A DNA stretch of 43,573 nucleotides. Origin: an uncultured Akkermansia sp. (lineage in GTDB: Bacteria > Verrucomicrobiota > Verrucomicrobiia > Verrucomicrobiales > Akkermansiaceae). Shown here one piece after another: positions 27,189 to 41,300 of the stretch (the first letter of the stretch is position 1; every line of letters starts with the position of its first letter). The DNA lies in NCBI GenBank assembly GCA_947589295.1, contig CANQBZ010000019.1, positions 1-43,573 on the forward strand, given 5' to 3'. A program made the translations under genes and the position numbers. A model generated the notes under the pieces. That model searched no databases, was not told the DNA's origin, and saw only the letters and a list, made by a program, of their open reading frames with translations.

Positions 27189-27527
27189 ATGGAAGACCTG
27201 AAACTTAACATCAAACTATGGCTCAAGGCTAACAGGCATGATTACGCATGGTTGGCAGAGAGGTGTTACGTGACGGAAACGACCGTTCGCAACTGGATGG
27301 CGAAAAAGCCGATACCCAAGGCCAAGGCGCATATCATCCGTGAGCTCATCAATCAGAGCCCGGTAACGATGCCCGTACCCTCGCCGATTGATGTGACTCT
27401 GCAGACGCACGTGACGATACGTATCGATAAGAACGTGACCAAGCGGTTGGAGGATAAGGCGTTCTCACAAGGATTAACGCTTGAGGAATTCCTCTCAAAG
27501 ACGCTGGCGAACCTGAGTGCAGAGTAA
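27189..27527 (+). CDS. Small DNA-binding protein with HTH and ribbon-helix-helix-like parts
   Basis: 112-residue protein. Residues ~5-50 (LNIKLWLKANRHDYAWLAERCYVTETTVRNWMAKK) read as a helix-turn-helix in which WLAERCYVTETTVRNWM supplies the turn and recognition helix. Residues ~73-112 (VTIRIDKNVTKRLEDKAFSQGLTLEEFLSKTL) match the beta-strand plus two helices of an Arc/CopG-type ribbon-helix-helix dimerisation and DNA-binding fold. Having both in so short a protein is unusual. It sits immediately upstream of the kinase gene, whose possible GTG start overlaps its stop, so it likely regulates or belongs to the kinase-GTPase set. Confidence 0.7.
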   Translation: MEDLKLNIKLWLKANRHDYAWLAERCYVTETTVRNWMAKKPIPKAKAHIIRELINQSPVTMPVPSPIDVTLQTHVTIRIDKNVTKRLEDKAFSQGLTLEEFLSKTLANLSAE

Positions 27528-27558
27528 CCAGCGCGCGCGATTCAACCGGTCGCAGGTT

Positions 27559-29118
27559 ATGCAAGCTACGTCGGTGATTGATTTGCCCCCCGGCACGCAT
27601 ATTGGGGAACGCTACAAGCTGCTTAAAGCGATCGGGCAGGGGGGATTCGGCATCACCTACGTCGCGTGGGATGAGGTAGAGCGTTGCCAGGTGGCAGTTA
27701 AGGAGTGCTTCCCGCAAGACATTTGTGTGCGCGATTCCAGTTCCGGGATGGTGGTGCCGGCCCGGGATAGCTTTGAACCGCGCTATATGAAAGCCCTGGA
27801 GGACATGAGGCGCGAGGTTCGCACGCTTGCCGGGCTTGATCATGATGCCATCATACGCATTCGGGACGTTGTTTGGGGAAACGGAAGTGTGTTTTGTGTG
27901 ATGCCTTGGCTGCCCGGAGGCACGCTGAGGGACGCAATTGAGACGAGGCGTGAGAGCATCTCCCCGCAGCAGTCGATAGAATGGTTACACTTGCTGTTGG
28001 AGGCTCTTCGCTACATGCACGGCCGCAGCATCACTCACCGCGATATCAAGCCTGCCAACATTATGTTTGATGCGCAGCAGCGCCCGGTCATCATTGATTT
28101 TGGCGCTGCTCTTAACCGTGCGGAACGTACCTCCAACACGACAACTTCCCAGGGGGCCTTCTCGCGCAATTACGCTGCCCCGGAGCAAATAACGGGAAAA
28201 GGGCGTGTCGGTCCTTGGACAGATTTTTATTCTCTTTCGGCCACATGGTATGAGCTGATTACCGGTATACCGCCGGAGGCTGCCGATGCCCGGCTCGCCC
28301 AAGATGATATGAAAACTCTTGCTAAGCAGGCATCCAGGCTTGGTTACCCGGTGGAAATGTTGGCCCTGTTGGATTGCAACATGGCGTTGCAAGCCAAGTG
28401 GCGTTGTCAGAGTGTCGAGCAGTGGGAGCAATGTTGGGCGGATGGGACCCTGCCGACGCTTGTACACCCCATGCAGCGGCGATGGATGCTTATCCTCGTG
28501 TTGGCGGCCGTTCTTATCGCGGTTGCCCTGGGTATTGTGTGCGCTGTTTACTTCTCAAAGAATGACGAAAATTTTCAGGCAATTCCGACTGTCCAATTGC
28601 CTCCGCAGAATCTCAAGCAGAAGCTCGAGGAATATGTGCAGCGTGAGATTCGTTCCCAAGACTTTTCCAAACTGTGTGAGGATTATGGGACAAAACTTGC
28701 CCAAATCAGGGAAAGACATCATCGCGAGATCGACCAATTCGTTGCGCGATATGTCGCGCTCATCGACCGCGTGGAGAATGAAAAATCGGGTAACGGCATA
28801 TCAGCTGCTCTGCACGATGAGTACTCGAAAATCTCCGCGCGCTTCGGTAAGGAGACCGCTGCCTTGAATGCCGATTACATGAAAGCCAGACGAGAATTTT
28901 GCTTCTCTGCCGAGGATATTCAGAAACATGTCCAGCCACGCAACCGCGCAGAGGAGATTATGATGCCGGCGGTCTGTGGGGAAATTTCTATCAGGCTGTC
29001 CCAGTTGGACGCAAAATTGCTCGCTTTTATGGGTGCCATGCCCGACAGGCAGCAGCTCGATGAGGAATATCTTAAACTCGAAAAAAGAATGGAAGAAAAA
29101 CTAGCTTCCGTTCGCTAG
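27559..29118 (+). CDS. Transmembrane Ser/Thr protein kinase
   Basis: 519-residue kinase with Hanks-type domain at ~19-275: glycine loop AIGQGGFGITY, VAVKE (catalytic Lys48), HRDIKPANIMF (Asp162), DFGAA (Asp180) and YAAPEQ. A membrane helix follows at ~309-332 (WMLILVLAAVLIAVALGIVCAVYF), then ~185 residues predicted outside the cytoplasm that are charged and coiled-coil-like (RERHHREIDQFVARYV). No PASTA or other known sensor domain is seen. ATG at 27559 was chosen; an in-frame GTG at 27517 overlapping the HTH gene's stop is an alternative. The next gene has an FHA-like fold, the usual reader of kinase phospho-threonines, which suggests a signalling pair. Confidence 0.9.
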   Translation: MQATSVIDLPPGTHIGERYKLLKAIGQGGFGITYVAWDEVERCQVAVKECFPQDICVRDSSSGMVVPARDSFEPRYMKALEDMRREVRTLAGLDHDAIIRIRDVVWGNGSVFCVMPWLPGGTLRDAIETRRESISPQQSIEWLHLLLEALRYMHGRSITHRDIKPANIMFDAQQRPVIIDFGAALNRAERTSNTTTSQGAFSRNYAAPEQITGKGRVGPWTDFYSLSATWYELITGIPPEAADARLAQDDMKTLAKQASRLGYPVEMLALLDCNMALQAKWRCQSVEQWEQCWADGTLPTLVHPMQRRWMLILVLAAVLIAVALGIVCAVYFSKNDENFQAIPTVQLPPQNLKQKLEEYVQREIRSQDFSKLCEDYGTKLAQIRERHHREIDQFVARYVALIDRVENEKSGNGISAALHDEYSKISARFGKETAALNADYMKARREFCFSAEDIQKHVQPRNRAEEIMMPAVCGEISIRLSQLDAKLLAFMGAMPDRQQLDEEYLKLEKRMEEKLASVR

Positions 29119-29142
29119 TTGAACGCATCAAGACTCCATTCG

Positions 29143-29157
29143 ATGTGTGGGACACAT
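29143..29157. promoter_or_regulatory. Small inverted repeat between kinase and GTPase genes
   Basis: ATGTGT (29143-29148) and ACACAT (29152-29157) form a 6-bp inverted repeat around GGG, about 50 bp upstream of the GTPase-gene promoter. It could be an operator or a weak hairpin; there is no T-run that would make it a terminator. Confidence 0.25.
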
Positions 29158-29209
29158 TAAAAACGAGCCTCGCCCGGCGCATCAATGTGGAATTGCCCTG
29201 AGAAGCTTC

Positions 29210-29238
29210 TTGACGGACTTGCCCAGTCATGGTATAAC
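29210..29238 (+). promoter_or_regulatory. Internal promoter before the GTPase gene, start-adjacent
   Basis: TTGACG (29210-29215), exactly 17 bp, TATAAC (29233-29238). The -10 ends 12 nt before the ATG at 29251, leaving a leader of about 5 nt and no ribosome-binding site. It would let the GTPase and its followers be expressed apart from the kinase. Confidence 0.65.
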
Positions 29239-29250
29239 ATTTCCGAGCGT

Positions 29251-31017
29251 ATGAGTAGCAGGTTGTACATCTTTGATTGCTTGAGCGGGAAGTTGAGGAT
29301 GGCAGATGCATCATTCATGACGATAGGGCGCGGGGAGGGGAATGTGTTTCGGTGCACGATGAGAGCCCAATCCGGCGGTTCCTTTGCCATGAGGGGAGGG
29401 GTGTGCCGTTTTTTCCCGCACTCGACGATTAGCAGTTATTCGCTGAATGGGCGGCTCTGGCAGCACGAAGCAGAGGTGCAGCCTGGCGTGCTCAATTTGC
29501 TGGTGCTGGCGGGCGGCTGTTTTGTGGTGTGGAGCGGGGATGAGAACGCGCTGCCGGATTTCAGCGCTTTCGACCCGGAGGAGTGGTATGCATACGGCAA
29601 AGATACCGGACGCTGGAGTCAACCCATGCGTCTCTGCGATCTCGTTAAAATACCGGCAGACAGAGTTGACAAAACGCTGGTGCTTTTCAAGGGCATTACA
29701 TCGTGCGCTTTTGAACTGAGGGACATGCTGGACGTTGCGCGATTTGTGCTGGAGGAAAGGGGAGAGATACCCAAGAGCGCCCCGGCGGTGAGCGTGCCTG
29801 CACAGGTAGCATGGGCAGAATCGGAGGTGGATAAAAAAGTATGCTGTCCAAACTGCTGGCAGAGGTTTCCCTTATCTCATGCGTTGGCAGTGTCTGCTCA
29901 CCCGAAGCTCACCGGCGACAACATCTTGGGGAGAGATGCTCCTCAACGGTTTGCACCGGTCAATGTGGACCAGCAGGGGGTGCCGGTGGATGCCATGGGG
30001 GTGAGTGTGCGGGAGTATGCTTGCCCTTGGTGTCACCACAAGTTGCCGCCGTTTTTTGAGCGCACTCGGCAGCTCATCTTTTCCTTGGTGGGGGAGGAGG
30101 CCGCAGGCAAAACCTACTACCTGACCACCATGTTGCATGAACTGGAGTACGCGCTGCCGCGGGAGTTCGGAATAGCGTTTCGCGATGCTGATTCAACGGG
30201 TAATGCTCCGCTCAACGCCCTCCGAGTGCAGTTGTTTAATGCGACCGGGCTTCAAGAGTCGTACCTGAAGCCTACGAAACCCGGTGGCCCGCTTTACCAC
30301 GATGTGTGGATGAAAGAGCAATATGTAAGTGCGCCTCGCCCCTTTATTTACAGCATCAGCCGCGAAAAAAAGACTTACACCATGGTTGTCTATGATACCG
30401 CCGGCGTGAGCTTTAGTCCGCAAAACAGTGCGCACGAGTTGGCGACCGGGCATTTGGAAAGCGCGTCCGCCATTTTATTCCTGTTCGACCCCACGGCGGA
30501 TATAGCGTTTCTCAAGGTGATAAAAAACACGAGTGGCGTCAAGAAGCTTGCAGGTGCGCACAGTCGAGAACGTCAGGCTGTTATGTTGTCGGAAATGGAA
30601 ATGCGCTTGCGCGCAACGCTGCATTTACCGCCGGAGAAGAAGCTGGATGTGCCACTGGCGGTGATGATCGGCAAGAGCGATACATGGCAAGAGCTGCTGG
30701 GTTCGGAGCCCCTGTTGCCGAGTGTGCGCAGCGGGCAGTTCCAGCCAAAGTTTGTGGATGCCAATTCCAAACGCTTGCGCGAATTGCTTTTCAGCATATC
30801 GCCCAATATCTGCATGAATGCAGAGGCTATCTCGTCGAACGTCCGCTACTTCGCCGTAAGTTCTTTCGGGCATGAATCGGAAGCCCTGGTGGATGAAAGC
30901 GGTCAAACGCACCAAGTGCCGGCAGAGGGCACGGTGCGGCCCAGCCGGGTGATTGATCCTGTGCTGTGGGCTTTGCATTGCAAGGACAGTAGCCTGCTGC
31001 GAAAAAATGGCTCCTGA
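29251..31017 (+). CDS. FHA-like / double zinc-ribbon / TRAFAC-like GTPase protein
   Basis: 588-residue soluble protein. Residues ~1-70 resemble an FHA domain in degenerate form (FMTIGRGEGN, later STISSYSLNGRLW). Around residues 200-270 are two CxxC knuckles, CCPNCWQRF and ACPWCHHKLP, separated by ~55 residues and likely binding zinc. The rest is a P-loop domain: GEEAAGKT (Walker A, residues 281-288), YTMVVYDTAGVSF (Walker B/DxxG, DTAG), and MIGKSDTW at the position of the NKxD specificity motif (GKSD). I relate it to the bacterial zinc-ribbon 'double-GTPase' families described in conflict systems, from memory. The frame is open to 29185, but ATG 29251 follows the promoter. The next gene starts 14 bp later. 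Confidence 0.75.
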   Translation: MSSRLYIFDCLSGKLRMADASFMTIGRGEGNVFRCTMRAQSGGSFAMRGGVCRFFPHSTISSYSLNGRLWQHEAEVQPGVLNLLVLAGGCFVVWSGDENALPDFSAFDPEEWYAYGKDTGRWSQPMRLCDLVKIPADRVDKTLVLFKGITSCAFELRDMLDVARFVLEERGEIPKSAPAVSVPAQVAWAESEVDKKVCCPNCWQRFPLSHALAVSAHPKLTGDNILGRDAPQRFAPVNVDQQGVPVDAMGVSVREYACPWCHHKLPPFFERTRQLIFSLVGEEAAGKTYYLTTMLHELEYALPREFGIAFRDADSTGNAPLNALRVQLFNATGLQESYLKPTKPGGPLYHDVWMKEQYVSAPRPFIYSISREKKTYTMVVYDTAGVSFSPQNSAHELATGHLESASAILFLFDPTADIAFLKVIKNTSGVKKLAGAHSRERQAVMLSEMEMRLRATLHLPPEKKLDVPLAVMIGKSDTWQELLGSEPLLPSVRSGQFQPKFVDANSKRLRELLFSISPNICMNAEAISSNVRYFAVSSFGHESEALVDESGQTHQVPAEGTVRPSRVIDPVLWALHCKDSSLLRKNGS

Positions 31018-31031
31018 ACAACGGCTCGGCT

Positions 31032-33554
31032 ATGTCATACCAGCTCATCTATACCATCCGGGGAAAGATAGCAGGCGCAGCGAGTTCGGCACCGCAAGTT
31101 GTGGCGCGTACGCGGCAGATGCCCGAGCGAATGGTGTCGCTGCTCATCGACCGCGGAAATCTGCTTTGCCTTTCCGTTGCAGATGATGCGCTGTTTTTAT
31201 ATGATTTGGCGAAGGTCGAAGAGGAGGTATGCCACGTCCTGACATCCGTGCGCGAGGGCGAAACGAATGGCGAGACAATAGTCCACTACCTGCTCCTGCG
31301 AGGGACGGAGGTTGAACAGATCGCGCAGGCGGATGAGCATGCCACCCCGGCAGGCGTTTTCCTCTTGCTGGAGCAGCAGGGATTTTGGGCCGAGCAATGG
31401 AATAAGGAGCCCGTCCTGCTGGAGGAGTCGGAGGCGCGCTTGGCCGGACGATGTTCATCGGGGGAAAACCTTGCCACCTGGCAGGTGTTCACAGGGGATG
31501 CCTCAGGCGCTCGTTTGTTGCAGGAGGCGCCGTATAATGAGCATTGCTTGGTATGTGTGCCGAGTGGTACGCGTTCGCGGGATGCGCTGCGGCTGTTGCA
31601 CGAGAGCGATGAGTTGAGTCGGCAGCGTGGATGGGGCGCGAGTTTTTGCGTCAATGCGGGTAATCTGCAGGTGTTGCGCAGCTGCCGTCGCGTGGTGTGT
31701 ACGGCGGAGAACAATCAGTTGCTCACGGCGGCTCGGCAGGCTCATGTGCCCATCTTGGAGGTGCGTCCGCGCACGCCAGCCGCTGCAAGTCCGGTTGAGC
31801 CGGGCAAGCCGGTTGAGCAGGGAAATGTCATCATGGCGATCCCCGCCGCCCCGTCGGATGCTTCCTCGACCCCGTTTCCATCCCGCTTGTTCAGTCGCTA
31901 CACGGAAGATGGTATGTTGTCCTTTATGGAGCCGGGCCCGTCGACGCAGAGAAAGTCGTGGGACATGAAGCTTGGGCTGGTCATAGGGCTGAGTGTGCTT
32001 GTGCTGGCGGCGGCATTGGCGCTGCCGGACCTGTTGGAGAAAAGAGAATCGCCGTCGGCGGACCGGACGCTTTCTCATGCAGAGCTTGCGGATGCGCCGT
32101 TGCCGACGCCCTCCTCCCCCGTGCAGACAGATGCCGCTCCTGCGTCAGGGGCGGCGGTGGAGGCTCTTCCTCCGTCACCCGGTTCCGGTTCGCCCTCGGA
32201 ATCTTCTTCCACCGTGCTTCCTGCTGATCAACCCGGACCGAGCGCCCTGCCCGATCCCGAAGAGATCCCGCATGAGGCGGAGGAGGATCAGGAGGAGCCT
32301 GATGCCGATGCTTCGGCAGAGACCGATGAGGGGATGGGCGCTCGCAAAATTGTTGTCATGGGGCAAGCGTTGCCGAGCGGTTTGCTGCCGAAGGATAAAA
32401 GTGTGGTGGAGCGCGGTGTGTTGATTCTGCATGAGGACTTCAACGGGCAACAGCCACAGCGCCGGGTGATCATGTTGCAACCCGGAAAAGTAACCTTGGC
32501 GTTGCGACGCACGGGCGAGCGCAGTATGAGCGTCACCCTGCTGCAGGGTGGAAAGCCCGCGCAGGACCTCCCCCCGGTGAATGTCACGGAAAAGCAAGGA
32601 AAGTTGGCGCAAGTGACGGTTCGAGATAAGCCGGCGGCGCTGCAGCTTCCCTACGTCGATGCGCAGGGAAAGCTGCGTTATGCGATTCTTCTTCCGGAAC
32701 TGGGGGCGCGGCTCAAGGCAACGGGATACAGTAAGCTGCCGGAGCCTGTAAGCAAGCTTGATCTGCCTGATGTCAGCAAATGGTACGCGCCGGAAAATGA
32801 CGCCCGCCACGCCAAGTTGTCGGTCTTGACCATGTTGAGCAAGCAGAGCAGCGAAGTCATACCCGCCGGCAAATTACAGCTTCCGGACTTTGAGGCGCCG
32901 AATGAAGTGCGCATTGTATCGTCTTCCGAGGAGTACAGTGCGCTCGCCTTGCCGGAAGACGGAGAGAAGCGCGGGGTATTCGCCTGGGTTGTAACTGTAA
33001 CCCGTCAATTTGACTTCCGAAAGGAGGTGGCCCTTTCCTTGCGCAAATTTTTTGCCGAACCTGCCAGGCAGCGTGGTAAAAAGAGCCACGCCGACTTTCA
33101 TCATCTCTACATGCTCGTGCAGCGTCTCGCTGAGGAAGAGCACAGTAATCGCCGCGAGGACCTCGTCGACCAGTACTTCAAGTTGTTCCGCGATGAGCCG
33201 TTTGCGCGCTACGCACATGACGAGCTGCTGCGTGAATGCGCGCAATATGTGCCGCTCAATGGTCGCGAGAACGGCAAATTGCGCAGGTATTTAACGGTGC
33301 GTGAAAATGCCCGGCAAATGTTGCTGGTGCTGAAGAGTCGTCTGAATGAACAGGTGCGCGAGGCGTACGAAAATGCACGCCTTCAAATCCTGCCTGAGCG
33401 CCAGCGTCTGGATGAACAGGTGCGCAAGGCATACAAAAAGCGGCATCAGCAGGACACGAAGCGCATGCCGGTGATCGAGCTGCGTCTCACCAAGGTGAAG
33501 CTCAGCAAGCGCAACAAGCTGATCTGGACCTTCACTCTGCAACCCAGGGACTGA
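31032..33554 (+). CDS. Membrane protein with GAP1-like (GTPase-associated protein 1) N-terminus
   Basis: 840-residue protein. The N-terminus (MSYQLIYTIRGKIAGAASS then PQVVARTRQMPERMVSLL) resembles the opening of GTPase-associated protein 1, 'QL-YTSA--GL----F-TVART-GMP--L', known as the partner of zinc-ribbon GTPases; similarity judged from memory. Cytoplasmic part ~1-310, one membrane helix at ~313-334 (LGLVIGLSVLVLAAALALP), then a Pro/Ser/Glu/Asp-rich acidic linker (~340-440), an unrecognised beta-rich region and a helical C-terminus containing a near-exact 22-residue repeat (RLNEQVREAYEN / RLDEQVRKAYKK). It follows the GTPase gene by 14 bp and ends 2 bp before the next gene, so the three are co-expressed. 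Confidence 0.65.
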   Translation: MSYQLIYTIRGKIAGAASSAPQVVARTRQMPERMVSLLIDRGNLLCLSVADDALFLYDLAKVEEEVCHVLTSVREGETNGETIVHYLLLRGTEVEQIAQADEHATPAGVFLLLEQQGFWAEQWNKEPVLLEESEARLAGRCSSGENLATWQVFTGDASGARLLQEAPYNEHCLVCVPSGTRSRDALRLLHESDELSRQRGWGASFCVNAGNLQVLRSCRRVVCTAENNQLLTAARQAHVPILEVRPRTPAAASPVEPGKPVEQGNVIMAIPAAPSDASSTPFPSRLFSRYTEDGMLSFMEPGPSTQRKSWDMKLGLVIGLSVLVLAAALALPDLLEKRESPSADRTLSHAELADAPLPTPSSPVQTDAAPASGAAVEALPPSPGSGSPSESSSTVLPADQPGPSALPDPEEIPHEAEEDQEEPDADASAETDEGMGARKIVVMGQALPSGLLPKDKSVVERGVLILHEDFNGQQPQRRVIMLQPGKVTLALRRTGERSMSVTLLQGGKPAQDLPPVNVTEKQGKLAQVTVRDKPAALQLPYVDAQGKLRYAILLPELGARLKATGYSKLPEPVSKLDLPDVSKWYAPENDARHAKLSVLTMLSKQSSEVIPAGKLQLPDFEAPNEVRIVSSSEEYSALALPEDGEKRGVFAWVVTVTRQFDFRKEVALSLRKFFAEPARQRGKKSHADFHHLYMLVQRLAEEEHSNRREDLVDQYFKLFRDEPFARYAHDELLRECAQYVPLNGRENGKLRRYLTVRENARQMLLVLKSRLNEQVREAYENARLQILPERQRLDEQVRKAYKKRHQQDTKRMPVIELRLTKVKLSKRNKLIWTFTLQPRD
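33339..33437 (+). repeat. 66-bp direct repeat inside the GAP1-like gene
   Basis: The segment starting CGTCTGAATGAACAGGTGCG at 33339 recurs with few changes at 33405, a period of 66 bp (22 codons). It encodes the duplicated coiled-coil stretch near the C-terminus. One full period and about half of a second are seen. Confidence 0.7.
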
Positions 33555-33556
33555 CT

Positions 33557-35707
33557 GTGAGAAAACATCCTGCCCAGAGTGAATGGCGTGCACTACGGAG
33601 GGTTGCTGTCAGCGGCCGGGAAGATGAAGTGCGGCGTGTCCTTCTGCGCCTGCAGCAGGTTTACCCGGAGGATTCCGAGGTGACGGATGAACTCGCGCGC
33701 CTTGAGGCCGGTCGGCCGCTGCGCATCGCCGAGTCCAAACGGCAGCGTGCTGAACGCCTCTCCCAGGAGGCTCAGCGCGGCATCCTCGCCATCCTGGCGC
33801 AGTACGGCAGCGCGCAAGCTGTCTCGTGCGCGCACACGCCCGATTTGCGGAAAGCCCAGCAGCAGTTGAACGCCTACGTGCATACTTTGAAAAGTGGACG
33901 TGAGGCAGCTCCTGCCGGTACGCGTGCTTTCGCGCGTGCGCTGAAGAGCGAGCTCAATAAGCGTAGGAAGAAAAACACACGTGGTCGTTTTATCCGCTTG
34001 GGTATTGTGGCAGCGGTGGTGGCGGCGGTAGCAGCCGTTGGCGTGATTTTGCACGGACGCGCGGGCCGATTGTCCCATCAACTGCTCGATGCGAAGAACG
34101 CGCGGGACTGGAACAAAACGACCGAGCTGCTTCGCGCGGCGGACACAGGCATCAACCGCATGATGCACCGAGAGGTGATTCCGGCGGTCGAGGAGGCGCG
34201 CAAGTGGCAGCAGCGCGTCCAGGTTGATAGCCGTGAACTCACGAGACAAATGCATGTCTACGAGAATCTTGGCGCTGTCTCATCGCTCAGCCTTGAGGAA
34301 CGCGCTGCGTTCCTGCGTCAGATACGAGCGTTGCCCGCTCCCTTTTCCACACACTTGCTGGAGAAATGGCAGGAGTTGTGCCGCCCGGTGCAGCAGGAAC
34401 TCGAGCGTCAGAAACGCGAGGCCGTAGCGCGTTTTTCACAGCCTGCTCCCCTGCCGCAGTTGACGGAGGACCCCGCACAGGATCGGTCTGCGCTCAGCTC
34501 GCTGGAACACAAGCTTTCACGCCTCCTGCACGATTTTCGCGATGCTCAAGAGACCTTTGAACTGGACCCGAAACTGATCGCTGCGCACTGCGATACTTAT
34601 GCCCAAGCGCAGAGGCTCCTCGGCGACATCGATCTGCTGACTCGTGCTGAAAATCTCTTGAGCACGGCGCGCAATTACACCGAGTACCGCAACGCGTTGG
34701 TCGGCTTCCGTCCGGTGAGCTACCAGCCGGCCTTGCGTGCGGCGGAGACGATGAACGCACTGGGCTCCCATGAGGAGACGCTTCTTGCAAAAATTCGCTC
34801 TGTCAAGCACCGCGTGCCCGCTGAATTCCCCGCGCCATACCCTCGCCATGTCATGAATGCCATCACGCAGGCCGGGCCCACCTTCGGCCCGCAATTCCCG
34901 GCTAGTGCGGCGCAGCTGGAAATCATGGAGGACCTGTTTACCAACCGCGCCATGCGCACGAAGCTCTACGAGCTGATCGCCGCGGATGGGCAAGTGCACT
35001 ACACGGAGCAGAACCCGGAAATGGTGGATGGAAACAAACTACGACTTCGCGTGTCGGAATTCGATCCGCTCTACAAGTTGGATGAACGGCAGAAGGAATG
35101 GCTCTATCCGCAGGCGGTAAAAATGAAGCTCGTCGATGTGAGCCCGCTGATGACAGCTTTGCAGATAGATCGTTCCACATTTTTTTCGCAGGCGAATGTC
35201 CCCGACCTCTTGGGACGCATCACCCAAGTGCATGCAGAGGCGTGTCCGGCTCTGGCCAAAGCGTACGTCTACGACACCCTGCTGACCCTGATAGCCGGTC
35301 AGGAGCAAGAGCCGGTTCTCGGGCTGAGATTTTCTCCGGCGTTGCGGGCTGATATGGACTCATTCCGCAAGCTTAAAGCGGAGCTGGGCGTGCGCCCGCG
35401 CATCAATTTGTGGCTCGAGCATACATCGGATCAAGCCAGAGCCGAGAGCGCCTTTGCCCGGTGGTTCAGCCAACACGAAGACCGCCGCTACACGCGCGAA
35501 ATGAGCAGAAACTTGCGTGCAATCCTGGCGGACCGCGCACGTTACGTCGGTTATGCGGATGCATCTTGTCGGGTGCACTACAAGGAATTGCATGCGCCCG
35601 CAAAAGGCCGCGTCTTGTATTATATATCACGGGGAAAGCTCGCTGTTGTGCCGTCAAGTGAGGAACTGCGCGACCCGGACCCTTTTTCACCCATATTAGC
35701 CGATTGA
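33557..35707 (+). CDS. Large single-pass membrane protein of unknown family
   Basis: 716-residue protein that I do not recognise. The GTG at 33557 comes 2 bp after the GAP1-like stop. Residues 1-140 are basic and helical (EVRRVLLRLQQVYPEDSEVTDELARLEAGR resembles a TPR-like start), then RRKKNTRGR and a membrane helix at ~146-166 (IRLGIVAAVVAAVAAVGVIL). The remaining ~550 residues are mostly helical with coiled-coil character (~190-330), then a mixed region with SEFDPLYKLDERQKEW and LYYISRGKLAVVPS near the end. By the positive-inside rule the large part is periplasmic, as in the kinase and GAP1-like proteins. It is likely a structural member of the same system. Confidence 0.7.
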   Translation: MRKHPAQSEWRALRRVAVSGREDEVRRVLLRLQQVYPEDSEVTDELARLEAGRPLRIAESKRQRAERLSQEAQRGILAILAQYGSAQAVSCAHTPDLRKAQQQLNAYVHTLKSGREAAPAGTRAFARALKSELNKRRKKNTRGRFIRLGIVAAVVAAVAAVGVILHGRAGRLSHQLLDAKNARDWNKTTELLRAADTGINRMMHREVIPAVEEARKWQQRVQVDSRELTRQMHVYENLGAVSSLSLEERAAFLRQIRALPAPFSTHLLEKWQELCRPVQQELERQKREAVARFSQPAPLPQLTEDPAQDRSALSSLEHKLSRLLHDFRDAQETFELDPKLIAAHCDTYAQAQRLLGDIDLLTRAENLLSTARNYTEYRNALVGFRPVSYQPALRAAETMNALGSHEETLLAKIRSVKHRVPAEFPAPYPRHVMNAITQAGPTFGPQFPASAAQLEIMEDLFTNRAMRTKLYELIAADGQVHYTEQNPEMVDGNKLRLRVSEFDPLYKLDERQKEWLYPQAVKMKLVDVSPLMTALQIDRSTFFSQANVPDLLGRITQVHAEACPALAKAYVYDTLLTLIAGQEQEPVLGLRFSPALRADMDSFRKLKAELGVRPRINLWLEHTSDQARAESAFARWFSQHEDRRYTREMSRNLRAILADRARYVGYADASCRVHYKELHAPAKGRVLYYISRGKLAVVPSSEELRDPDPFSPILAD

Positions 35708-35710
35708 CGT

Positions 35711-36208
35711 ATGCTTGTAGCGCTCATGTCCGATGCTCACGATGAGCAGCAAAATCTGCTGAAGGCTTTGCGGCGTGCCGAGGCGGATGGCTGTCGGCGC
35801 CTGCTCTACCTCGGGGATTTATGCACGGTCGAGACACTGCGCCTGATGCGCCGGGCGTGGCAGCACGAGCTGGATTTGGTGCCGGGCAACAATGACTACC
35901 CGCGCGCAGCATTTCAGGAATGTGCGCGCGAGTGGGAGAAGACCCGCATGCACGGCGATACGGCGCATTTGGTGATCGATGAGCGCCGCATCATGATGAC
36001 GCATATTCCGGGCTATGCTCTGCAACTGGCGGCGGAATCCGGAAAGTACGACGCCCTCTTTTTCGGGCACACGCACAGGCCGGTCAGTTCCATCGTCGGT
36101 CACACCCTGGTGGCGAATCCGGGGGACCTGCAGGGGCGTTTCGCCGCGCCTTCCTTCGCCACCTACGATACCCAAAGCCATTGCGTGACCATCGTCCCGC
36201 TCGGCTGA
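35711..36208 (+). CDS. YfcE/MJ0936-type metallophosphoesterase
   Basis: 165-residue calcineurin-like phosphoesterase of the small YfcE/Vps29-related group. Metal-binding motifs in order: SDAHDEQQN, YLGDLCTVETL, PGNNDYP, MTHIPGYAL (His) and FFGHTHRP, followed by VANPGD. Members hydrolyse phosphodiesters in vitro; in-cell substrates are mostly unknown. It starts 3 bp after the preceding gene's stop, so it belongs to the same transcript and could work on a nucleotide or phospho-group made or used by the kinase-GTPase set, or may be a housekeeping gene. Confidence 0.88.
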   Translation: MLVALMSDAHDEQQNLLKALRRAEADGCRRLLYLGDLCTVETLRLMRRAWQHELDLVPGNNDYPRAAFQECAREWEKTRMHGDTAHLVIDERRIMMTHIPGYALQLAAESGKYDALFFGHTHRPVSSIVGHTLVANPGDLQGRFAAPSFATYDTQSHCVTIVPLG

Positions 36209-36221
36209 CTCCAACTGGCCT

Positions 36222-36800
36222 ATGCATTACCTCGTTTATCACCTGGAATCCGCGGAGACGCCGCTGCTGCATCCGGAGCAACTGGACCCCGCGGAGAGGG
36301 AGGCGTACGCAGTGCGAGGGGAAAGGTTTTTGAAGGAACGCAGCCTCCTGCGCCGTGCTCTGGAGCGGCTCACCGGCATCCCCGCAGAGCAGATCCGTCT
36401 GCGCTACACCGAGTACGGCAAGCCGATCTGTGAGCAGCAGCCCTTCAACATGAGTCACAGTGGAGATCTGCTCTGCATCGCGTTTCATCACGGCAGCATT
36501 GGGGTCGATATCGAGCGCATTCGCCCACGCAGTCACATGAGCAGGGTTGCCCGGCGCATCATGTGCGCCCGGCAGTGGGAGGCCTGGGAAGCCCGCGGGA
36601 GCGACATCCACGAGTTCTTTGCCTGTTGGTGTGCGGCCGAGGCTCTGGTCAAGTGGTGCGGCAAAAGCATTCTGCACGCGCGCGACATCCCCTTTTTGTA
36701 CGTCGATGGCGGCATCCGGCTGTGTTCGCCGGGCGGGCCGGTAGTGGAGTTGTTTTCCCCGGCTCCGGGTTACGCGGGCGCGCTTGCTTATGAGCCGTGA
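36222..36800 (+). CDS. 4'-phosphopantetheinyl transferase (Sfp/HetI type)
   Basis: 192-residue Sfp-superfamily enzyme, which moves the phosphopantetheine arm of CoA onto carrier proteins. Motifs: TEYGKPICEQQPFNMSHSGD (P1/P2 region), IGVDIERIRP (Mg-binding D-x-E) and WCAAEALVKWCG at the W-x-x-K-E-A-x-x-K position. The usual first Lys of the last motif is Ala here, while the Glu and second Lys remain. It is the last plus-strand gene of the run, 13 bp after the phosphoesterase. No carrier protein or synthase gene is nearby. Confidence 0.85.
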   Translation: MHYLVYHLESAETPLLHPEQLDPAEREAYAVRGERFLKERSLLRRALERLTGIPAEQIRLRYTEYGKPICEQQPFNMSHSGDLLCIAFHHGSIGVDIERIRPRSHMSRVARRIMCARQWEAWEARGSDIHEFFACWCAAEALVKWCGKSILHARDIPFLYVDGGIRLCSPGGPVVELFSPAPGYAGALAYEP

Positions 36801-36814
36801 GAAGCGGCAACGCG

Positions 36815-37942
36815 TCAGCGCGAGAAAAAGCGCGCCCCCACGTCGGTGCCAAACCGGCGGCGCAGCGCATCCGCCCTCGCGTTCCACCCCGCATCCACAG
36901 TCTCACACACGTTGATGAGCCCTTGTTGATTGGTGCGGATGAAGAGCGCTGCCGTTCGTTTGCCGTCCGTGACGGTGAAAAATCGTGTGCGGCTCTCAAA
37001 CATGTCATCGGTGGAAGCCAGCACGAGGTCGGAGTCGTCCAGCAACTGCGCGCGGTAATCCGCCGGCGCACGCTGCACTTGGAGCCAGGCGTGCGCCTGC
37101 GCCGGGGTTGCCCCGGCAAATAACTCGTTGTCTGATATGTGCCGCATCACCCGCAACGCCGCATGCACGGCACGGGTCGTGGCGCGGTAGCTCCCGTCGG
37201 GCATGCGCTTGCATTCGTACATGACGCGCATGTCGCGCTGCAAAGCCCCGCCGGCAGTGGGCTGCGGGTAGAGCAAGAACCACCCCGCAAGAAGCCCGAT
37301 AAGCAGCAGGTACGCCCCACCCCTGCAGCGGCGTAAACGCGTGACTCTGCGCATCAGCTCCAGGAAACGCTCAATGATGGATTGATCGGGATCGCCGAAG
37401 AGAAAACGCACCTTCGGCCGGGCGGGGTTGGCCGCAATTTCGCGCACGGTGAGTGCGTTGGCAGGGTCGAGGATTTGAGCGTCCATCGTGTTGAAATCGC
37501 TCTGCTCATCCCGGCGGGATTCCTGGAAGAGATACACGAAGAGCCCGCAGCGCAGCAGAAAACTCGCAAAGAGGATAAGCGCATAATAGAAGAGCCCCCA
37601 ACTCAGTTTGCCATCCTCGAAGGAAAAGGTGCGCACAACGAACTCCGGCGCCCAGGCCCGCAGCAGCGGAAATGCAATGATGCCGGCGATAAGCGCCGTC
37701 CCCATGGCTGAAAACCAAACTTTGTTGCGCTGCGCGCCGAGGCTGCTCGCCAGCTCCATCCACAAAAGGGGCGCAAGCCAAAGAAGAGGCTTGAGTTGAT
37801 AGATTGTGAACCCCTGCACATAATCCGCATCCGGCGTGGGAGGCAGAATACTGTCCGGGTAGGATAAGGCGTAAAGCAAAGCGAACGCTCCCGCTAAGGT
37901 GAGCAGGTAGCGCACGCACAGACTGACGTGCCCCCAAAACAT
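36815..37942 (-). CDS. Multi-pass membrane protein of unknown function
   Basis: 375-residue protein with about four membrane helices in the first 140 residues (YLLTLAGAFALLYALSYP; PLLWLAPLLWMEL; GTALIAGIIAFPLLRAW; LFYYALILFASFLLRCGLF), a cytoplasmic loop (RRDEQSDFNTMDAQILDP, then RFLELMRRVTRLRRCRGG), a fifth helix at ~207-227 and a ~145-residue soluble C-terminal domain (LLDDSDLVLASTDDMFESRTRFF). I do not recognise a family. It is convergent with the transferase gene (14-bp gap) and has a near-perfect promoter directly at its start codon. Confidence 0.75.
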   Translation of the reverse strand: MFWGHVSLCVRYLLTLAGAFALLYALSYPDSILPPTPDADYVQGFTIYQLKPLLWLAPLLWMELASSLGAQRNKVWFSAMGTALIAGIIAFPLLRAWAPEFVVRTFSFEDGKLSWGLFYYALILFASFLLRCGLFVYLFQESRRDEQSDFNTMDAQILDPANALTVREIAANPARPKVRFLFGDPDQSIIERFLELMRRVTRLRRCRGGAYLLLIGLLAGWFLLYPQPTAGGALQRDMRVMYECKRMPDGSYRATTRAVHAALRVMRHISDNELFAGATPAQAHAWLQVQRAPADYRAQLLDDSDLVLASTDDMFESRTRFFTVTDGKRTAALFIRTNQQGLINVCETVDAGWNARADALRRRFGTDVGARFFSR

Positions 37943-37950
37943 ACCCCTGC

Positions 37951-37979
37951 ATTCTATGCGGCATCGTCCGCTGTGTCAA
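37951..37979 (-). promoter_or_regulatory. Near-consensus promoter of the membrane-protein gene, start-adjacent
   Basis: On the minus strand a perfect TTGACA (37979-37974) is 17 bp from TAGAAT (37956-37951). The -10 ends 8 nt before the ATG at 37942, so transcription should start within 1-2 nt of the start codon. This is the cleanest example of the leaderless arrangement in the window. Confidence 0.75.
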
Positions 37980-38037
37980 GGATGAGCTCACGGCAAACTA
38001 CCTCGCGTTGCCCGCTCGCCTCTCCCTCCAAGGCGCT

Positions 38038-38058
38038 TATCTCTTTTCAAAAACGATG
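38038..38058. repeat. Degenerate copy of the CTCTTTT/AAAAGAG palindrome
   Basis: TATCTCTTTT-C-AAAA is intact on the left, and the right arm has three mismatches to AAAAGAGATA. It is about 60 bp upstream (minus strand) of the 37951-37979 promoter, so one operator set could serve both divergent genes. Confidence 0.45.
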
Positions 38059-38177
38059 TCCAGCTCTTTTTTCATCAGATGGGAAAAATTTTTCAGAGAT
38101 TCTCATCATCGGGCCAGAAGAGAGAGGAGGTCATAGACAGTCTGACACCCAATCTCTTAGCCCGTAAGGAAAGCGTG

Positions 38178-38198
38178 TCTCTCTTTTCAAAAGAGATA
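38178..38198. promoter_or_regulatory. Palindromic site CTCTTTT-C-AAAAGAG
   Basis: A perfect 7-bp-armed palindrome (38181-38195), with arms extending to 9 of 10 matches (TCTCTCTTTT and AAAAGAGATA). It shares its core with the sites at 38038 and 38330, and the spacing is irregular. It looks like a protein-binding site, not a terminator: the arms are AT-rich and no gene ends nearby. Confidence 0.55.
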
Positions 38199-38258
38199 AG
38201 CTGATCGGGGCGCCAGGGACCTTGAAAATGCGTGTATGACATACAGGAAACGCTACTT

Positions 38259-38279
38259 TGCTTCCTTTGAAAAAAGACG
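38259..38279. repeat. Weak fourth copy of the palindrome
   Basis: CTTCCTTT-G-AAAAAAGACG keeps the TTT-G-AAAA centre but matches the full arms at only 6-7 of 10 positions. It may be a decayed or low-affinity site. Confidence 0.25.
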
Positions 38280-38329
38280 CATTGAAAGGAATAAACATTC
38301 TTATCATCAACAATTTAAACACTCATAAC

Positions 38330-38360
38330 ATGTATATCTCTTTTGAAAAGAGATATACAT
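38330..38360. promoter_or_regulatory. Perfect 31-bp palindrome upstream of the beta-repeat gene
   Basis: Arms ATGTATATCTCTTTT (38330-38344) and AAAAGAGATATACAT (38346-38360) are exact reverse complements around a single G (38345). The site ends 10 bp before the -10 box TACACT and covers the -35 position of the 38387 gene, the classic place for a repressor or activator operator. The inner 21 bp match the site at 38178 at nearly all positions. Confidence 0.75.
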
Positions 38361-38369
38361 CTGTTTTGC

Positions 38370-38375
38370 TACACT
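38370..38375 (+). promoter_or_regulatory. Candidate -10 box of the beta-repeat protein gene
   Basis: TACACT ends 11 nt before the ATG at 38387. No good -35 lies at 16-18 bp; that place is inside the 31-bp palindrome (TTGAAA at 38343 would need a 21-bp spacer). The promoter may depend on an activator bound to the palindrome. Confidence 0.4.
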
Positions 38376-38386
38376 GATTGTTCGCT

Positions 38387-41300
38387 ATGAAACTTCATTT
38401 ACCTCTCGGATTACGTCGCGTTTTGATGGCTTGTCTTACGGCCGTTTCCTTGACCGTTGCCTCCTCTTCAGGTTGGGCCTCCTTGTTCTTCCTCTCTGCC
38501 CCCATGGTCGAACTTGCTCAGGCAGACTGGCCTTCTGGGAATTATGGCACCGTTACGGAAGTTGCCGGTGGGAGTTCTTACGCAGTCCAGTCTGGAAATC
38601 ACGCAATTAAACTGACAGGAGTTGCAAGCAACACCGGGGCGAAAACAATTACTCTGACCGGAGGTAGCGAAAGTGCACATCTCAAGGTTGTTGGAGATAA
38701 ATACAGCGTTGGCAACAACAATGAGTCATACAAACTCTCGGCAGCTTCTGCCGTGGAGATTGGTTCTGTGTGGATTGATGCGACTCAGGGAGGGGACTCC
38801 GGTAACCAGGCGTTTCGTCTGGAGTTGGCTCAAAAAGACGAGCAACAAGCCAACAATGTCCATGTAAATGATTTTTACGTAGGCAGTTCAGATGAGACTG
38901 ATCAATACGGGCAGCTGTGGCTTAATGCCTACACAGGTAATGGGGCATGGAACCTGCATCTGGGAGCAACCTCCTATACTGAGGGGGAGTTTACCCATCT
39001 GAAGGATGCTGCGTTGCGTGTGGACGGTTCCGGAACTGCCACGTCCGGGTACCTTGAAACCCTCCAAGACACAAAAATTGTAGGGGCATCAAATGCTGCT
39101 TTCAGCGTGGGAGGACTACGTGGGAGCTTTAAGCTCTCCTTGGACGGCATGGATGTTCTGACGCTCACCATTACGGGGAATAATGAAGCGAACGAAGCCT
39201 TCACGGGAATTCTTGAATTTTTGCAACCAAACAACACTGGCCATGTCACACTCGATGTGCAAGCCAACGCAGTACAAACTGTCGGAGGCCTGAGTAGCGC
39301 AACGGGCGGCACCACGACCAACAACAAAGTCACAGGAAACGGGAAGCTGATCTTAGTGGGGAGTCAGTCTAGCGCTTTCAAGGGAGGTTATGGATCATCC
39401 GGTGCGTATGGTCCGACCTTGGCGACAAGTGAAGATTACACAGGGACGCAGACTTTCGAGGCGGTGGTGTACGCGACGTCGCTTGATATTAAGGGAGGGA
39501 CGATCAATGTGACCGCTACAGCAAGCGGCGGCAGTAGTATCCTCCTTAAGACGCAGGGGGGTGGCAGCATAAGCGGTGGTGAAGTGATCGTGGGGAAGGG
39601 TGGTAATACTGTGCCGAGTGGAAGCAAAATTTCGGACACCTTGCACAGCGAAGGAGACATGACGGTGAGCAACGGTGGTAAGCTGACTGTTTACGGTGCA
39701 TTCGGATTGGGCGATGGTAGTACCAACAAGAAAAATCTCACGGTGAGTGGCGCCGGTACTACTGTGGCTATTGATGGTCGCTTGAGCAGCTACGGCAGTG
39801 GTGGTTTCACCGGGAATGTCACGGTGAATAGTGGCGGCGACCTTGAGGTGGGAAAGAGAGGAACGAGCAGCGGTGCATCTGTCGGCAACAACATGGATGC
39901 TTGGACGAGTGTTGTGACGGTAAGCGGATCAGGCAGCAGCATGAAGGTAGCCGGCAGCTTGGGAACGAACGGCAGTGTTATTACAGTGAGCGAGAGCGGC
40001 ACGTTGGAAATTGGTCATGCGATTTGCAGCGGCGATAATAACAACACCTGCACAGGAGCGCTGACAATTTCGGGAGGGGGCACGGTCACCGTGGGTAAGG
40101 AAGGGATGGTAGGGACGCCCGACCATGCCGGGAATGCCTATGTAGCGAGCCTCACCATGAGCAACGAGGGGAGCGAGTTGACGGTGCACAAGAATCTGTA
40201 TGCCGGGACGGGAACGAACAACTTCAATGGTGCCGTCACCATCAACGGGGGGACGGCTGATGTGAAGGGAGAACTGCATGCGGGAGCCGTGAGTGTGACA
40301 GGCGGCGATCTCACTGTGGGGACGACAGCCGGAGTAAACAGCTTAACCGTGAGCGGGGACGCAACCAATGTGTCCGTCACCGGTTTGACGACCGTAAGTG
40401 GCAATGTCAGTGTAACGAGCGGCACGGTTACCTTGACAGGAGGGCTGACCGCTACGAACCATGCCGTGAGTGTGACAGGCGGCAGTTTCTCCGTTGGAGC
40501 AGCGGCCACGGTAGGCAGTTTGACTGTGAATGGAGGCACAACCTCCGTCACTGGTTTGACGACCGCGAATGGCAATGTCAGTGTAACGAGCGGCACGGTT
40601 ACCTTGAGCAACGGGTTGACTGTCCAGAATGGTGCGGTCACTGTGAACGGAGGTGAAGTCACGGTGTCAGGAACCATCAATGTAACTCCCGGCACAAGTG
40701 GAAAACACGTCACGATTGACAAGGGCGGCACACTCAAGCTGAGCGGCGCCTCCACCGTTCAGAGTGCGCAGAACTGGACCTTGGGGAATGGGGGCACACT
40801 CGATGCCACCGGAGCAAATAGTTTGACTGTGGGAGGTAGCGATAAGCTGACCATTACCGTTTCTGCATCGACTTCGGAGACGGACGGCGTTCACCACGTC
40901 GGCAACTTGAAACTGAAGAACGATTTGCTGACGAGCTTGTCGAAGGACAAATTCGGTTTGACCTTGGGGGGCGTGACGGACGACACATTGTGGGCGGCAG
41001 GGGATGACGGCTGGACTTGCGACTTGCTGGCGGGGAGCCAGGGTCTGGGGGACAACCTCAAAAATTACGAGGATTTCCTGAAAAGGGCTCTGCAGGGCTT
41101 GTCTGACCGCACGGAAGTGACCGTTTCTGCGGATGGCAACGTGACTCTCGCGCTTCATACGAGAAATCTCTCTTGGAACAGCGGGGTGACGAGCGACTGG
41201 AAAGACGATGATGAGAACACCTGGACGTGGAACAACGGAGAGGTACCTGAAACCACGAGTGATTTCAGGAAGGGGGACAGCGTCACGTTCTTAGATGAAA

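Follow-up and report, generated by a model that had tools for sequence, protein, structure and literature searches.

A conserved operon of a zinc-ribbon DO-GTPase, a GAP1-N2-type protein and a third membrane protein in Akkermansia, putatively derived from GAP1-N2 DO-GTPase systems

Introduction

GAP1-N2 DO-GTPase systems have been predicted by Kaur et al. 2020 to be NTP-dependent conflict systems (PMC7159879). As described in parts of that paper, they combine a DO-GTPase carrying two N-terminal zinc ribbons with a following GAP1 protein that has a GAP1-N2 domain, include partners bearing transmembrane (TM) segments, are present in Verrucomicrobiae and, in planctomycetes, have GYF partners. A DO-GTPase has also been described beside gammaproteobacterial psp operons, where a link to membrane stress was predicted (PMC11237479, in part). 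No experimental study of DO-GTPase/GAP1 systems was found in the open-licence PMC literature.

Here we analyse a related locus in the window, i.e. the whole stretch of 43,573 nucleotides, which is part of a 2.24-Mb draft genome (G000). An earlier note on this DNA had joined five genes into one probable signalling or conflict system and had linked it to predicted NTP-dependent conflict systems. The link is right, in that the locus is related to the systems of Kaur et al. 2020 as outlined above; the five genes are real, but they are not one system. The features discussed below are as follows.

27189..27527, + strand: small HTH/RHH-like protein, neighbour outside the module (weak HTH_17/MobA-like matches)
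27517..29118, + strand: Ser/Thr kinase with one TM segment, neighbour outside the module (PF00069, E 6.4e-37)
29119..29200, no strand: breakpoint between two gene units (similarity to the G128 GTPase locus from 29201; kinase similarity ends before)
29210..29238, + strand: predicted sigma-70-like promoter of the GTPase operon, TTGACG - 17 bp - TATAAC (conserved motif)
29251..31017, + strand: FHA-like domain, two zinc ribbons and DO-type GTPase, 588 aa from the likely start (alignment A1, Pfam on relatives)
30394..30408, + strand: G3 motif, DTAGV in the window (DxAGE in 40/40 distant copies)
31032..33554, + strand: GAP1-N2-type protein, TM residues 314-332, C-terminal part predicted periplasmic (GAP1-N2 of relatives, TM prediction)
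33557..35707, + strand: third core protein, 716 aa (family of 81 members; model pLDDT 85.7; second-look match)
35711..36208, + strand: YfcE-like phosphoesterase, 3 bp downstream of the 716-aa gene, conserved neighbour (PF12850, 2.7e-25)
36222..36800, + strand: 4'-phosphopantetheinyl transferase (PPTase), conserved neighbour (PF01648, 1.9e-12)

Results

Two gene units in one row

All five ORFs are open in the window at the positions given for them and adjoin each other, as had been noted: the HTH-like and kinase genes overlap by 11 bp, the kinase is separated by 66 bp from the annotated GTPase start, and the next two gaps measure 14 and 2 bp. The unity read into this row did not hold, the HTH-kinase pair and the GTPase operon being separate conserved units in relatives. 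The kinase itself was described accurately; it is complete (PF00069, E 6.4e-37), with its catalytic motifs and one strong hydrophobic segment, and has orthologues of up to 69% identity over nearly the full length. In the stretches fetched around it from seven relatives (G119, G122, G123, G124, G125, G126 and G128), a 79-93% identical copy of the small HTH-like gene stands directly before the kinase in 7/7, and no GTPase of the module kind lies within the fetched stretch in any. Kinase and HTH-like gene thus make up a pair of their own rather than parts of the proposed system. The small protein, labelled an HTH-RHH regulator before, is only weakly HTH- or RHH-like, every profile match lying under its cut-off.

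The window's left flank further contains genes for an acyltransferase (named by profile PF03279), a 276-aa protein, and a glutamate-dehydrogenase-like and an M3-peptidase-like protein (both named by reading of the sequences). These genes also accompany the kinase in three of the seven relatives (G123, G126, G128) and were not seen in the stretches fetched from the other four. Following the kinase of G128, a 212-aa ORF takes the place of the GTPase (locus L176). Full-length kinase orthologue and GTPase are on different contigs in G119, G121, G123, G125, G126 and G128, an observation that is weak by itself, these genomes being drafts, and the kinase orthologue is present in G002, G120, G122 and G127, all of which are without a GTPase match. 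Among 54 same-genus GTPase loci there is no other kinase of the window type adjoining the GTPase; L070 has a different kinase, of 845 aa, some genes upstream. Identification of the window kinase as the MADS kinase MAD6 was rejected, the NCBIfam equivalog score being 131 bits where the cut-off is 460. Three small genomes (G081, G086, G088) have expanded kinase families, with 13, 12 and 19 kinase-domain matches, respectively, at E 1e-40.

Because the similarity of the window to the GTPase locus of G128 (L047) begins at 29201, the breakpoint can be placed between the kinase stop and this position. The junction at 29119-29200 may be a real rearrangement or may reflect a chimeric contig. Comparison with G128, the nearest relative, gives a mosaic: the left flank is mostly 72-90% identical, window positions 29201-31300 are 76-89%, 31301-34600 91-97%, 34601-35800 70-81% and 35801-37600 96-98% identical. 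The divergent parts are thus the GTPase and the third protein's distal half, which forms a single divergent block, whereas identity stays at 91-98% in GAP1 and the downstream genes. This pattern suggests that the operon was touched either by recombination between relatives or by assembly mixing. Farther downstream (37950-43573) G+C drops to 0.47 at 38-39 kb, and beyond the dip the minus strand bears long Val/Thr/Pro-rich ORFs, which give the impression of a repetitive protein's shadow or of another unit.

The GTPase operon has a predicted promoter, whose best score reaches at least 9/12 in 50/54 same-genus loci versus 3.4% of shuffled upstream sequences. The start that agrees with relatives is the ATG at 29251, which is probably the true one, and not the annotated ORF start at 29185. 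By these signals, the operon begins with the GTPase, behind its own predicted promoter.

The DO-type GTPase and its G3 motif

The window GTPase holds a P-loop, two CxxC pairs and GKxD, in agreement with its earlier description as a zinc-ribbon double-GTPase, and its DO-GTPase domain is assigned by homology via relatives. On the DO-GTPase2 profile (PF19993) it scores 13.3 bits, under the cut-off of 27; that cut-off is passed by three of the six relatives that were scanned one by one, and the profile matches 26/28 aligned sequences at E <=0.1 (best 1.2e-8). The zinc-ribbon Cys, the P-loop Gly-Lys, the G3 Asp/Ala/Gly and the G4 Lys and Asp are invariant in the 28-sequence alignment. Across the 54 same-genus and 40 distant copies, the G4 (GKxD) Lys and Asp are kept in 54/54 and 40/40 and the P-loop Lys in 52/54 and 40/40; all four zinc-ribbon Cys, before the P-loop, are present in 54/54 same-genus copies. 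The G3 Asp is found in 43/54 (missing in 11) and 40/40, and the G3 Glu, absent from the window, in 33/54 (missing in 21) and 40/40. G3-less copies align well on either side of the motif. These counts point to decay of the G3 motif within Akkermansia, window included, a feature that is new here. Lacking the G3 glutamate, the window GTPase would likely hydrolyse GTP slowly or be held in a bound state. The GTPase is under purifying selection, with dN/dS of 0.03-0.12 in 10/12 pairs (0.06 in the G3-less pair L077-L079); the values are rough, several pairs having dS >1.5, and dS was not computable in two pairs.

FHA domains bind phosphothreonine through the arginine of the GR motif, a Ser and a His, and an Asn. 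In the present family the FHA fold label comes from profile matches in 2/28 aligned relatives. The GR Arg is found in 9/54 same-genus copies and the Asn in 52/54; the stretch corresponding to Ser-x-x-His reads GGSFA-like, with the second Gly in 54/54 and no Ser-x-x-His pattern. Since the phosphothreonine-binding residues are not conserved, the suggested route, in which the FHA-like domain reads phosphothreonine made by the kinase, is unlikely. Where Akkermansia has the FHA-like domain, the distant GTPase of L141 has an N-terminal GYF_2 domain, and GYF-like proteins (cluster c30, recognized by reading) lie upstream of the GTPase in some loci among L081, L082, L118, L147 and L141.

The GAP1-like protein and the third core protein

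The guess that the gene at 31032 encodes a GAP1-like protein is borne out by its relatives only: 20/35 aligned sequences match GAP1-N2 (PF20013; best 1.9e-18), the 35 comprising the window protein, five database proteins and 29 of 50 other same-genus ORFs of the cluster, and the window protein itself has no match to PF20013 or GAP1-M. GAP1-M is found in only 1/35 of these sequences, and GAP1-C is absent among the matches listed. The GAP1-like protein changes faster than its neighbours; among L002-L005 its identity falls from 84% to 39%, compared with 85% to 76% for the GTPase, and dN/dS is 0.79 for the window-G128 pair, at a dS of only 0.08. Its structure model is poor (pLDDT 40.9). One strong hydrophobic segment each was found in the kinase, the GAP1-like and the 716-aa protein. 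The N-in orientation that these three had been proposed to share is borne out by a clear charge bias for the 716-aa protein only (8 K/R before the segment, 3 after); the bias is weak for the kinase (2/1) and neutral for the GAP1-like protein (3/3).

The 716-aa protein consists of a helical N-domain, a TM segment (148-166), a long helical part, an SH3-like small beta domain (468-530) and a C-terminal beta part. Its relatives have one TM, with K/R more numerous ahead of it than behind in 44/47 and 32/34 sequences, and make up a family that spans the phylum and has no Pfam name, described here for the first time. Other same-genus genomes carry an unlinked relative of 877-909 aa, without GTPase or GAP1. 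Of the ten loci of this relative that were fetched, L161 and L164 (with one small ORF between) as well as L166 and L173 have a membrane kinase gene upstream; the upstream kinase of L162 is cut off and that of L165 degenerate (those of L162, L165 and L166 being called by motifs or reading). No kinase is found upstream in L167, L168 and L174, and the L163 stretch begins with the gene itself. These kinases are distant from that of the window (E about 1e-11). Their position beside a third-protein relative is the strongest point still left in favour of a kinase link.

Conservation and inheritance of the module

Downstream of the GTPase in the 54 same-genus loci, GAP1 is found in 52, the third protein in 47 and both in order in 46, and phosphoesterase and PPTase in 46 each. 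Around 40 distant GTPases (39 genomes), the corresponding numbers are 37, 34 and 34 for the first three, and 0/40 each for phosphoesterase and PPTase. Some missing neighbours are due to contig ends (e.g. L032). GAP1 directly precedes the phosphoesterase in L051, L053 and L054, and L062 is also without the third protein. The co-occurrence of GTPase, GAP1-like and 716-residue protein is thus that of a conserved module (46/54 and 34/40 in order), made up, by gene order and homology, of a zinc-ribbon DO-GTPase, a GAP1-N2-type membrane protein and the 716-residue protein, to which Akkermansia adds phosphoesterase and PPTase.

At E 1e-20 the GTPase is found in 76/387 genomes of a phylum sample, nine of them same-genus. 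Within 76 same-genus genomes, it is present in 52 and the third protein in 55; both occur in 49, the GTPase alone in 3, the third protein alone in 6 and neither in 18 (Fisher p 1e-9, relatedness uncorrected). The six genomes with the third protein alone include two that keep GAP1 (L155, L156); GAP1 was not seen in L157-L160, and L157 has an 83-aa GTPase-like remnant. In L155-L160 the site of the third protein is unchanged, with phosphoesterase, PPTase or both following it wherever the contig extends far enough. Such loci, in which the GTPase is lost and the third protein kept, are also new here. Module inheritance appears to be mostly vertical, because GTPase and third-protein distances follow those of YidC (Mantel r 0.64 for the GTPase in 30 genomes and 0.81 for the third protein in 28). 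Usually there is one module copy per genome.

Motor-like genes in distant loci

Genes for MotA/ExbB-family proteins lie downstream in 14/40 distant loci and ExbD-like genes in 11/40 (15/40 and 12/40 without the downstream rule); both are 0/54 downstream in same-genus loci. Both MotA/ExbB proteins that were scanned pass the Pfam cut-off. The ExbD-like proteins have no match to the corresponding Pfam family and are so named as products of the adjacent gene that have a coiled coil and one N-terminal TM, with an Asp where the TM begins (16/16 sequences inspected). Based on these assignments, MotA/ExbB and an ExbD-like partner are predicted in about a third of distant loci and are absent from the Akkermansia operon, which is new here; in their main text, Kaur et al. 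2020 (PMC7159879) do not use the words MotA, MotB, ExbB, ExbD and TolQ. The frequent presence of the two motor-like genes after the distant trio makes it probable that the ancestral device was controlled by the GTPase and driven by protons. An unlinked MotA/ExbB relative, followed by large TM proteins, occurs in 4/76 same-genus genomes (L169-L172), and G000 has no such MotA/ExbB-type gene.

Comparison with described systems

The layout set out in the introduction (two N-terminal zinc ribbons on a DO-GTPase, then GAP1 with GAP1-N2; TM-bearing partners; presence in Verrucomicrobiae) is shared by the module, and GYF partners also occur in distant loci here. Unlike the systems described in PMC7159879, the module has an FHA-like N-terminus instead of GYF and a fixed third core family, the window lacks the G3 glutamate and GAP1-M (found in 1/35 relatives), and distant loci contain MotA/ExbB and ExbD-like genes. 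FNIII had no match in the window proteins scanned, in the listed families of alignment A2 (GAP1-like) or in the best 25 of 34 for A3, and fast-changing variable domains can escape such searches. Alike in layout, the module is best described as a derived form of the GAP1-N2 DO-GTPase systems, a variant and not a plain member, because the window lacks the G3 Glu and has no match to GAP1-M/C.

The distant loci resemble Zorya, which combines a ZorA/ZorB motor with effectors, in having a MotA/ExbB-family membrane protein and a single-TM partner. They differ in having GTPase and GAP1 instead of Zorya effectors; neither the window nor the Akkermansia operons have ZorA/ZorB, and ZorA profile matches of the distant MotA/ExbB proteins are weak (best 3.6e-6). 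The psp-linked system (PMC11237479, in part) has the DO-GTPase family in common with the module, but no Psp protein was recognized among the window genes scanned.

Tol and Ton are trans-envelope machines built from an inner-membrane motor pair and a long periplasmic arm. The module is like them by analogy, through motor pair and long arm, the Akkermansia operon being without the motor; no sequence relation of the third protein to Tol/Ton was found.

Discussion

With confidence that reaches about halfway, we favour the reading in which GTPase, GAP1-N2-type protein and 716-residue protein form one envelope complex or switch, whose ancestor was probably proton-driven and which is motorless in the window lineage. 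In the predicted topology and direction of signalling, the cytosolic GTPase and the GAP1 domain would set the state of the 716-residue protein, which would be anchored in the inner membrane and reach into the periplasm as an arm; the window lineage would have kept switch and arm and dropped the motor. Counted against this reading are the window GTPase and GAP1-like protein scoring under Pfam cut-offs, the GAP1-like model (pLDDT 40.9), the six genomes with the third protein without the GTPase and the three with the reverse, the G3 Glu missing in 21/54 copies, the mosaic relative to G128 together with the GAP1 dN/dS of 0.79 for this pair (at a dS of only 0.08), and motor genes in only about a third of distant loci. 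A bolder version, which we put forward tentatively, would see in Verrucomicrobiota a GTPase-gated, proton-powered trans-envelope machine, in which the DO-GTPase/GAP1 switch drives a Tol/Ton-like arm (the 716 to 1000-residue family) via a MotA/ExbB and ExbD-like motor. Akkermansia would have a motorless form with an eroding GTPase, and the arm could be wired either to GTPase/GAP1 or to a membrane kinase.

A defence role for the module is possible. An anti-phage system of the conflict type predicted by Kaur et al. 2020, whose GTPase/GAP1 switch would flip when an invader is sensed, with an effector acting on the cell, would fit the relation to GAP1-N2 DO-GTPase systems, the fast-changing GAP1-like protein, the mosaic divergence with its distal block in the third protein, and the Zorya-like MotA/ExbB genes of distant loci with their weak ZorA matches. 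We nevertheless consider it doubtful: PADLOC gave no match for the GTPase and chance-level matches only for the GAP1-like and third proteins, there is no recognizable effector domain, the module is mostly vertically inherited, usually in one copy per genome, and the role of the parent family is itself a prediction in the papers found. Standing envelope surveillance is favoured over a mobile defence cassette.

It is improbable that Akkermansia keeps the GTPase branch as a mere relic in decay, with the third protein working alone in the envelope. Such decay would account for the missing G3 Glu (21/54) and G3 Asp (11/54), for the six genomes that have the third protein at the same site without a GTPase match (two with GAP1 left) and for the operon without motor genes, but it is at odds with purifying selection on the GTPase even in the G3-less pair L077-L079 (dN/dS 0.06), with retention of the P-loop Lys (52/54), the GKxD Lys and Asp (54/54) and the zinc-ribbon Cys (54/54), and with the three genomes that have the GTPase without the third protein.

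Least of all do we expect a single signalling or conflict system in which the FHA domain recognizes what the TM kinase has phosphorylated and to which the kinase, the GTPase, the GAP1-like protein and the 716-aa protein all belong: adjacency in the window and the kinases upstream of the unlinked third-protein relative (877-898 aa in L161, L164, L166, L173; kinase cut off in L162, degenerate in L165; ten loci fetched) speak for it, but kinase orthologues belong to another unit in 7/7 relatives fetched, the GTPase operon has its own predicted promoter, none of the 54 same-genus loci has another such kinase beside the GTPase, the FHA phospho-binding residues are not conserved, and the kinases beside the third-protein paralogue are only distantly related to that of the window.

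DO-GTPase/GAP1 systems have so far been proposed from sequence analysis. The operon that includes the 716-residue protein is a compact, seemingly mostly vertically inherited version with a clear predicted promoter and a fixed third component of an unnamed family, and relatives provide a natural deletion series (GTPase gone; GTPase and GAP1 gone) together with natural G3 losses, so that the target switched by the GTPase becomes directly testable. If functional, the MotA/ExbB and ExbD-like genes of distant loci would tie the GTPase switch to a proton-driven envelope machine.
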